From: Verrucomicrobiia bacterium
GTDB taxonomy: Bacteria > Verrucomicrobiota > Verrucomicrobiia > Limisphaerales > CAIMTB01
Reading direction: 5' to 3'
Assembly (NCBI GenBank): GCA_019634625.1
Contig: JAHCBA010000043.1
Span: 1-54,002, forward strand
DNA length: 54,002 nucleotides
The notes beneath the pieces are model-generated. The model was not told where the DNA came from. It worked only from the letters and a program-made list of their open reading frames with translations, and did no database searches. The translations under genes were made by a program, and so were the position numbers. Positions 50,960 through 52,612 of the stretch are shown here, one piece after another; the stretch's first letter is position 1; the number at the start of each line of letters is the position of its first letter.

Positions 50960-51820
50960 TCAATGCGGCACACCCATCGCATGCTGCCAGGCATGCACCA
51001 CGTGGTCCCGGATGATCCCGATCCCCCGGCCCTCCCGCACCGCGGCAAACACCCACGGACCGGCGCCTCGCATGGCCAGCGTGTCCCGTTCCATGACGGC
51101 AAGATCCGCACCCACGGCGGAGGCGAGATCGATCTTGTTGATGACCAGCAAATCGCTCTGGGTGATCCCCGGGCCGCCCTTGCGCGGGATCTTGTCGCCC
51201 CCGGCCACATCGATCACCTGGATCGTGAAGTCCGCCAGTTCGCGGCTGAAGCAGGCCGCCAGGTTGTCGCCGCCGGATTCAATCAGCAGCACATCCGGCC
51301 GGAACAGGCGGTGAAGCTCCTCCAGGGCCAGCAGATTGGCGGTGATGTCCTCGCGGATGGCCGCATGGGGACATCCGCCAGTCTCGACGGCGCGAATGCG
51401 TTCCGCAGACAGCGCCTCGTTCCGGATCAGGAACTCCCCGTCTTCCCGGGTGAAAATGTCGTTGGTCACCACCGCCAGGCTCAACCGGTCGCGCAGGCTC
51501 CGGCAAAGCTGCAGGACCAGGGCCGTCTTGCCGCTGCCAACCGGCCCGCCAATCCCCACGGTGAAGGCGCGGGTGCTGAAGTCGCGTTCCAGGGGACGCT
51601 CCCGCTCATGGAAATGCCCGGGATGATCCAGGATCTCGTGCGTGTGCCCATGACCCTCCTCATGGGAGTGCCCGACTCCGGGCGGATGCGGATGCGGATG
51701 CGGATGCAGGTGCGGATGCGGATGCGGATGCGGATGCGGATGCGGATGCGGATGCGGATGCGGATGCGGATGCGGGTGCGAATGCGGGTGCGAATGCGGG
51801 TGCAGGTGCGGGGCGCTCAT
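50960..51820 (-). CDS. ureG: Urease accessory GTPase UreG with His-Pro repeat tail
   Basis: 286 aa from the ATG at 51820; the frame is open to 51925 but upstream codons show no family similarity. Residues 4-75 are almost entirely His-Pro dipeptides followed by [12 protein letters not shown] and [11 protein letters not shown], far longer than the short His stretch of typical UreG (about 205 aa). The GTPase part has Walker [38 protein letters not shown] (CPH nickel motif), [25 protein letters not shown] and NKIDL. No ureE is present, so the tail probably stores and hands over nickel. Unusually, it is inverted relative to the other urease genes. Confidence 0.96.
51683..51810. repeat. Hexanucleotide tandem repeat inside ureG
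   Basis: About 21 units of GGATGC and variants (GGGTGC, GAATGC, AGGTGC) encode the His-Pro dipeptides of UreG on the minus strand. The central part, about 51715-51770, is nearly pure GGATGC and so is likely to vary in copy number by slippage without frameshifting. Confidence 0.9.
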
Positions 51821-51942
51821 GATGCCGTCGTCCGACACCCCACGCTGATGGATTTGCCGCGTTCTGCCAATCCGGGATCGACCTCCCCAAGCCCCAGGGG
51901 GCAGGGGCTTTGGCATCGTCCCCAAGGATGATCCGAGGTTTT

Positions 51943-52072
51943 TTGGACAGGATGAACAGGATCAACAGGATCCAGAAGAGCCGCTTGCCTGCCGGATTTC
52001 GCGGTGAGTCGATGGATCCCTGTCTGTTGCTCCGCTCCATCCTTCATCCTGTCGAAAGACTTCAGACCAGAC
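51943..52072. repeat. Direct repeat copy 1 with ACAGGAT motif
   Basis: A TTGGACAGGATGAACAGGAT-type start at 51943 is followed by a 70-bp unit (51973-52042) that recurs at 52520-52589 with two mismatches. It continues as TTCATCCTGTC...CAGACCAG. ACAGGATnnACAGGAT-type tracts are widespread intergenic repeats in environmental bacteria (general knowledge). No gene is seen in this 1,168-bp gap (51821-52988). Confidence 0.7.
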
Positions 52073-52131
52073 GCTTCATGACGTTGTGAATCGCCCCGGA
52101 GGGCCGGCAGCTTCCCCTTCGATCGGGTCCA

Positions 52132-52365
52132 GGCCCCAAAGGGGCCAGATGAGATAGCCCAGGGCGACCGAGCCCTGGGATGTGGCGGGTAAAGGTTCGG
52201 GCAAGCCCTGAAGGGGCGCGACCTCGCCGCAAACTTGCTCCGGGTTGTTCGATGAACGTTCGCGGTGGGTTTGGGCAGGTCGCGCCCCTTCAGGGCGCCG
52301 ATGATTTCACATTGCGCGTACCCAGGGCGTTGCCCTGGGCTATCTCATTTGGCCCCTTTGGGGCC
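52132..52365. repeat. 234-bp nested palindromic repeat element
   Basis: The left arm, 52132-52224, contains GGCCCCAAAGGGGCC, ATGAGATAGCCCAGGGC and GCCCTGAAGGGGCGCGACCT. The right arm, 52277-52365, contains their complements in reverse order (AGGTCGCGCCCCTTCAGGGC, GCCCTGGGCTATCTCAT, GGCCCCTTTGGGGCC). Several arms are palindromic by themselves, so the transcript could fold into a multi-branched structure. It lies between two 70-bp direct repeats. No reading frame is convincing. Confidence 0.8.
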
Positions 52366-52519
52366 CCCCCGGTTTGCCAGTCAAATGGCCAAACTCCAGG
52401 GAAACCCGGAGGGTTTCCAGAGATTAGCCGGGGGTCGGACCCGGCTCCGCGGGTTCGACCCCCGGGAAGAAGTCCCACCTCGCACACGACCCCGCCAGGG
52501 GTCGCAGATCGACAGAATG

Positions 52520-52612
52520 CAGAAGAGCCGCCTGCCTGCCGGATTTCGCGGTGAGTCGATGGATCCTTGTCTGTTGCTCCGCTCCATCCTGTTCATCCTG
52601 TCCAATACCTCA
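52520..52612. repeat. Direct repeat copy 2
   Basis: Second copy of the 70-bp unit (52520-52589), followed by TGTTCATCCTGTCCAA, the reverse complement of the TTGGACAGGATGAACA that opens copy 1. The pair therefore carries terminal inverted sequence around the 234-bp palindrome, giving a composite of about 670 bp. Confidence 0.7.

Follow-up and report, generated by a model that had tools for sequence, protein, structure and literature searches.

A REPIN-like palindromic element with Acido-Lenti-1 units at its ends in a repeat mosaic of a Verrucomicrobiia genome

The 670 bp studied here (positions 51943-52612 of the window, the whole analysed stretch of 54,002 nucleotides) are a mosaic, or nest, of three repeat families, designated T, R and P, and not one element. 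P, the inner palindrome, is very probably a non-autonomous REPIN-like miniature element, in which two inverted REP-type units surround a short core, and which would have been mobilised as single-stranded DNA by a Y1 (HUH) transposase of TnpA-Y1 subclass 1.2. It is best read as a derivative of the autonomous form found in relatives, where hairpins A, B and C flank a Y1 gene of about 150 amino acids on each side; P has the same hairpins, with a 52-bp core replacing the transposase gene. Throughout, G000 is the window's own genome (6.74 Mb) and the C-numbers are its contigs, G001-G004 are genomes of the window's genus, and the L-numbers are individual loci that were compared.

A sequence-only reading of the region had described a palindrome, 70-bp direct repeats with two differences (51973-52042 and 52520-52589) and complementary ends. 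Arm mapping and comparison of the fold with shuffled sequences confirmed these features and their positions. The third hairpin repeat, R (52400-52508), and the Rfam matches had not been listed there. In the palindrome, the outer arms (37 nt; 52132-52168 and 52329-52365) are 95% complementary, and the inner arms (20 nt; 52205-52224 and 52277-52296) 100%. The direct repeats extend to an 84-nt pair (51960-52043 and 52507-52590; 94%), with two differing positions in its 70-bp core, and 52586-52605 is the exact complement of TTGGACAGGATGAACAGGAT (51943-51962). Folded as RNA, the palindrome reached -184 kcal/mol against -103 +/- 5 for the shuffles (z -16, 0/200), and as DNA -99 against -48 (z -12). 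Since both values lie far below those of the shuffled sequences, the fold is more than chance.

The region is situated upstream of a minus-strand ORF (50960-51925), which we take from its translation to be ureG. The 5' part of this ORF contains a (GCGGAT)n-like tract (51683-51800) that reads on the minus strand as an N-terminal His-Pro repeat. ORFs on the plus strand (52180-52554) traverse P and encode RALPWAI-type peptides; their annotation as hypothetical proteins is likely.

Table 1. Features of the region in window coordinates
Feature	Positions	Strand	Description
T copy 1	51943-52057		interspersed repeat of ~115 bp, bounded by inverted repeats TTGGACAGGATGAACAGGAT ... ATCCTTCATCCTGTCGAA; contains the first 70-bp direct repeat
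Spacer	52058-52131		ends in CTTCCCCTTCGATCGGGTCC, the R left flank, which P separates from R
P	52132-52399		268-bp palindromic REPIN-like element: palindrome 52132-52365 and tail hairpin 52366-52399
Left Acido-Lenti-1 (RF01687) unit	52132-52179	-	hairpin A 52132-52146, linker, foot ATAG 52154-52157, hairpin B 52158-52179
Hairpin C, left arm of inner inverted repeat	52205-52224
52-bp core	52225-52276		occupies the place of the transposase gene in relatives (cf. L119)
Hairpin C, right arm	52277-52296
Right Acido-Lenti-1 unit	52321-52365	+	hairpin B 52321-52339, foot CTAT (minus strand ATAG) 52340-52343, hairpin A 52351-52365
R	52400-52508	-	~108 bp, three hairpins 52400-52418, 52428-52465, 52487-52504; diverged single unit, plan A - ATTAG - B - C
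T copy 2	52509-52605		left-truncated; contains the second 70-bp direct repeat

Both ends of P were matched by the Rfam family RF01687, Acido-Lenti-1, in mutually inverted orientation (cmscan; 28.7 bits, E 4e-4 at 52321-52365 on the plus strand; 28.5 bits, E 4.6e-4 at 52132-52179 on the minus strand). The gathering score of this family is 37 bits, and the window copies, at 28-29 bits, fall short of it; since a copy on C20 of the same genome exceeds it (37.9 bits), the window copies can be regarded as relatives below the line. With our own covariance model (R1), which was built from 45 relatives and trained partly on transposase-flanking copies, the left unit of P scored 49.3 bits (E 4e-12) and the right unit 47.3 bits. 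The same model also gave a minus-strand match in R (52401-52466; 27.7 bits, E 4e-6); thus R shares the plan of hairpin A, a linker with a TTAG end, hairpin B and then C.

P holds two inverted REP-type units in one hairpin, the arrangement of a REPIN. The palindrome with a 5' GTAG-like tetranucleotide that marks a REP was likewise found, with a match model that includes the foot. Among 131 copies the foot before hairpin B was NTAG in 112 and GTAG in 40, and since the model contains the foot position, it overstates the NTAG count. By reading, the feet in the window are ATAG twice in P and TTAG in R. Rfam matches to miRNA and telomerase families at or near the palindromes stayed below their own gathering scores and were taken as chance. 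The sbcD RNA (RF01757) matched P weakly (52116-52297, E 0.073) and is perhaps another REP-type unit labelled as RNA.

Acido-Lenti-1 units beside Y1 transposase genes

Two sets of Y1 transposase loci were examined. A PF01797 search of 20 RF01687-rich genomes yielded 30 loci, and with the Rfam model (E <= 0.1) 16 of them had a unit no farther than 600 bp from the gene and 9 showed the inverted '- gene +' arrangement, both tallies having been counted by eye. The second set comprised 80 loci chosen by transposase protein alignment alone and encoding IS200-like Y1 proteins of about 150 amino acids. Here our own model (E <= 0.01) detected a unit at most 600 bp from the gene in 63 of the 80, and '- gene +' in 39. 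Such flanking is one half of what defines a REPtron, the other being mobilisation of the REP by that gene. At least L168 and L190 occur in both sets, which are therefore not fully independent. Around the 80 genes the units numbered 3.0 per kb up to 100 bp from the gene, 4.3 from there to 200 bp, 1.8 to 400 bp and 0.26 to 800 bp; beyond 800 bp their density dropped about 100-fold, to 0.02-0.035 per kb. At its gathering score the Rfam model matched 8 of 15 second-set loci, seven of them no more than 200 bp from the gene and L188 at about 730 bp.

At L119 hairpins A, B and C stand on both sides of the Y1 gene, in arms of 49 and 40 nt that are 94-95% complementary. At L061 (G031) units of the window's type (AGCCCCAAAGGGGC - GATAG - CCCAGGGCAACGCCCTGGG ... 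AGCCCTGAAAGGGCG) form an alternating array around the gene. According to the record titles, among which are many MAGs so that single assignments may be wrong, the unit-bearing hosts of the 80 loci belong to Verrucomicrobiota, Planctomycetota, Acidobacteriota, Lentisphaerota, Kiritimatiellota, Bacteroidota, Calditrichota, Zixibacteria, Thermodesulfobacteriota and Chloroflexota. Subclass-1.2 transposases were also noted at L177 (titled Klebsiella pneumoniae) and L211 (titled Akkermansia muciniphila), both MAGs that may be mis-binned.

In 17 of the 80 loci, including a clade of seven mostly from Bacteroidota, no unit was detected within 600 bp of the gene. On the tree of the 80 proteins hairpin presence took 11 changes compared with 15.7 after shuffling; presence is thus clustered, with no single origin of either presence or absence. 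Gene-side units were closest to the dispersed units of the same genome in G025, G101 and G087 and failed this cognate test in G072, G124 and G036 (three of six clear), the overall rank being 10 of 720 permutations.

All 80 proteins contain [DN]HxH and 75 contain YxxxQxxHH, while the YxxNP motif of RAYT class 2 was present in none of the 80. The combination of HUH with Y---Q--HH is that of TnpA-Y1 subclass 1.2, as judged by motifs. The Y----Q motif and CnGA foot of TnpA-Y1 class 3 were not observed, Y---Q--HH and NTAG being found instead.

It would be conceivable, though in our view unlikely, that P is the MITE of an ordinary IS200/IS605 insertion sequence, which would be the autonomous form, with no REP-type relationship. 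P is indeed MITE-like, the NCBIfam IS200/IS605 model exceeded its cut-off in four of the five proteins tested with REP_Tyr_transpos remaining below cut-off, and comparison with the PDB matched IS608 and ISDra2-type structures, some of the matched chains presumably being ISDra2. However, the units are far more numerous than the genes, and the NTAG foot, the doublets and the tandem arrays are features of REPs. In addition, the protein belongs to subclass 1.2, which Quentin 2018 (PMC6006769) describes as not sharing IS properties.

For a REPIN-like element served by a subclass-1.2 transposase the following mechanism can be proposed. The hairpins would extrude in single-stranded DNA; the transposase would recognise hairpin B together with the NTAG foot on its 5' side, cleave beside this hairpin and paste the element into new single-stranded targets. 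In G000 a P copy would have entered an R repeat lying beside an unrelated T repeat, and the composite would be the result. That this transposase moves the Acido-Lenti-1 unit is suggested by their association, and the single-stranded route of transposition is likewise inferred.

The transposase with matching ends that the sequence-only reading had envisaged is present in relatives, in the form of Y1 genes flanked by RF01687, and absent from the host: G000 has no subclass-1.2 gene. Mobility here would thus be historical, or would depend on a gene that was lost or is unassembled, and P is presumably immobile in this genome now. Elsewhere in the genus, two subclass-1.2 genes were found in G002 and another two in G003, and each of these four has, on one side or both, a weak unit match no more than 350 bp away; only a fragment is present in G001, and no such gene in G004. 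The 30 PF01797 (Y1_Tnp) matches of G000 were rejected as partners, the loci read being of other types, among them two RAYT-like genes of about 350 amino acids, and no Acido-Lenti-1 was found near the Y1 genes at the six G000 loci scanned. A gene of about 980 bp common to the G000 loci L035-L038 (~89-94% identity) is probably a multi-copy mobile gene.

Acido-Lenti-1 as a repeat population

Of 146 genomes belonging to the order, 105 contained RF01687, 84 of them above the gathering score, and none of 14 control genomes did; the copies scored per genome numbered up to at least 38. The family behaves as a REP, being widespread in the order and often arranged in inverted doublets about 150 bp apart. 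Such doublets were found at all ten places sampled in G040 (starts 145-152 bp apart), at 10 of 13 in G083 and at five of six in G003, of the window's genus. The ten places sampled in G025 comprised one inverted doublet, one direct tandem and otherwise single units. The outer inverted end common to the G040 and G083 doublets is about GGGCGCATCTCAGTTTCTTGCA. In the one orthologous pair tested between these two genomes, the G040 locus (L276) holds a doublet where its G083 counterpart (G083:C307) has only one hairpin, the flanks being 91-92% identical. This pair shows change, by loss or gain of the inverted arm, and is neither an insertion nor an empty site. REPs are of high copy number and lie mostly outside genes. 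The copy number of the family is high in the relatives; in G000 there are only three full copies of P and at least 41 copies of R.

In the alignment behind our own model 92% of the cells were paired and 12 of the 13 pairs had changes on both sides (0/500 shuffles), while sliding the alignment by one column lowered the pairing to 40-54%. This strong covariation would also be expected if Acido-Lenti-1 were a true small RNA, or a terminator or attenuator, placed around the Y1 genes in order to regulate them, an explanation that we regard as improbable. Its Rfam entry is of the sRNA gene type, REP-like hairpins are able to act in RNA, and passages of a 2026 paper (PMC13298647) suggest a regulatory role for Acido-Lenti-1 near proteases in Tannerella. 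However, covariation cannot separate DNA from RNA hairpins, the copies far exceed the Y1 genes in the rich genomes, and inverted doublets and alternating arrays occur; furthermore the unit is inverted on both sides of the gene, and P interrupts another repeat. The suggestion of a structured RNA gene, made from the sequence alone, thus agrees with Rfam's label for the end motif, but a DNA element fits better on account of the copy number, the inverted doublets, the site inside another repeat and the position around transposase genes.

Acido-Lenti-1 is probably the REP of TnpA-Y1 subclass 1.2 and not an RNA gene family; it would constitute, with its transposase, a further REPtron class in about ten or more phyla, and the CCCAGGGCGTTGCCCTGGGC-type palindromes that are common in environmental genomes would be its non-autonomous copies. 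If so, this widespread Rfam family would gain a concrete function, as would a class of environmental palindromes, automatic annotation (sRNA calls, spurious ORFs across the palindrome) could be corrected, and the missing DNA partner would be supplied for a Y1 transposase subclass. The elements would also be seen to insert into one another, which would explain composites such as that of the window.

Copies of T, R and P in the host genome

Elsewhere in G000 full copies of P are located on C4 (93%) and C35 (90%), a partial copy on C33 and a diverged one on C20. R has at least 40 further copies with identities of 82-98% (best 40 of 106 candidates scored). Related copies of T were found on C39, C35, C12, C10 and C9. 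On C39, T is complete with both inverted ends and without P (L039 947-1071), and T, spacer and R follow one another with the spacer directly on R; in the window P occupies that point. In 17 of 33 distinct R copies, the window's being among the 33, the P junction is uninterrupted, the left flank (match of at least 10 of 14 positions) adjoining the R hairpin directly. On C35, P adjoins the same R hairpin in the opposite orientation.

By reading, the P junction shows no long duplication, and the P tail abuts a hairpin in the window and on C35, C4 and C33; these four cases are a lead only. Since the tail motif is also present in three R copies without P, the right boundary of P is uncertain. No orthologous empty site was found at ureG: four same-genus ureG loci have no repeats beside the gene, and since their neighbours or gene order differ the comparison is uninformative. 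A tandem array of CACGCTTCAGCGTG / CACGCTAAAGCGTG hairpins at L041 (G000:C4:82800-84600) has a P copy inserted into it. In the same-genus genomes G003, G004 and G001 many copies of TTTTGGACAGGATnAACAGGATnAACAGGAT, the end motif of T, were found.

That the whole 670 bp is one composite transposon bounded by TTGGACAGGAT inverted ends is highly improbable even though the 20-nt ends are perfectly complementary and T and R adjoin on C39 and C35 too, because each end comes from a different copy of T, the complete T of C39 lacks P, P and R occur without T, and the search of G000 for a second copy of the entire arrangement gave none and so largely refuted it. The label of a non-autonomous mobile element fits the inner palindrome and is not supported for the whole, and in the genome-wide count P, R and T are each multi-copy, and found apart, while their joint arrangement is single.

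Comparison with known systems

The Acido-Lenti-1 RNA was described by Weinberg 2010 (PMC2864571), is listed in Rfam among the small RNAs with no assigned function and is named also in PMC10059132. A paper linking it to REPs was not found in a search that lay mainly outside subscription papers, supplements and figures, so that priority is not established. The units described here share its hairpins B and A, with the same spacing, and its CTA foot, and their hosts include Acidobacteriota and Lentisphaerota. They differ in that Rfam lists an sRNA whereas we find a probable mobile-DNA unit beside a transposase, and in the scores of the window copies.

In TIRtrons (TIRYT), according to passages of Di Nocera 2013 (PMC3733652), a Y1 gene lies between inverted repeats, some of them self-complementary and genome-repeated, and some are from Acidobacteria. 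The Y1 gene between inverted repeats is common to both systems, as compared by description, but 20 of 26 TIRtron proteins were placed in subclass 2.1 by Quentin 2018 (PMC6006769). The GTAG REPs of Opitutus terrae (GTAG-17, -19 and -20; PMC3733652, same passages) are also GTAG-tagged palindromes of a verrucomicrobium; compared by description, they may overlap with Acido-Lenti-1.

Subclass 1.2 is defined by Y---Q--HH in passages of Quentin 2018 (PMC6006769), where it is mostly from Cyanobacteria and Bacteroidetes and generally without IS200-type end structures. Our proteins share this motif and the small size; in contrast, they are flanked by hairpin units and come from Verrucomicrobiota, Planctomycetota, Acidobacteriota and others.

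With the REPIN, as defined in passages of Bertels and Rainey 2011 (PMC3116915), and with the REPtron of RAYT (TnpA-REP class 2) the present system has in common the inverted doublets, the high copy number in relatives, the Y1 transposase at the unit and a foot like the GTAG of E. coli-type REPs (PMC8266576). Unlike those, it has YxxxQxxHH in place of YxxNP, and hairpins A and B plus C per unit instead of one palindrome. P resembles a REPtron product and, because the Y motif of the protein differs, is outside the classical RAYT systems.
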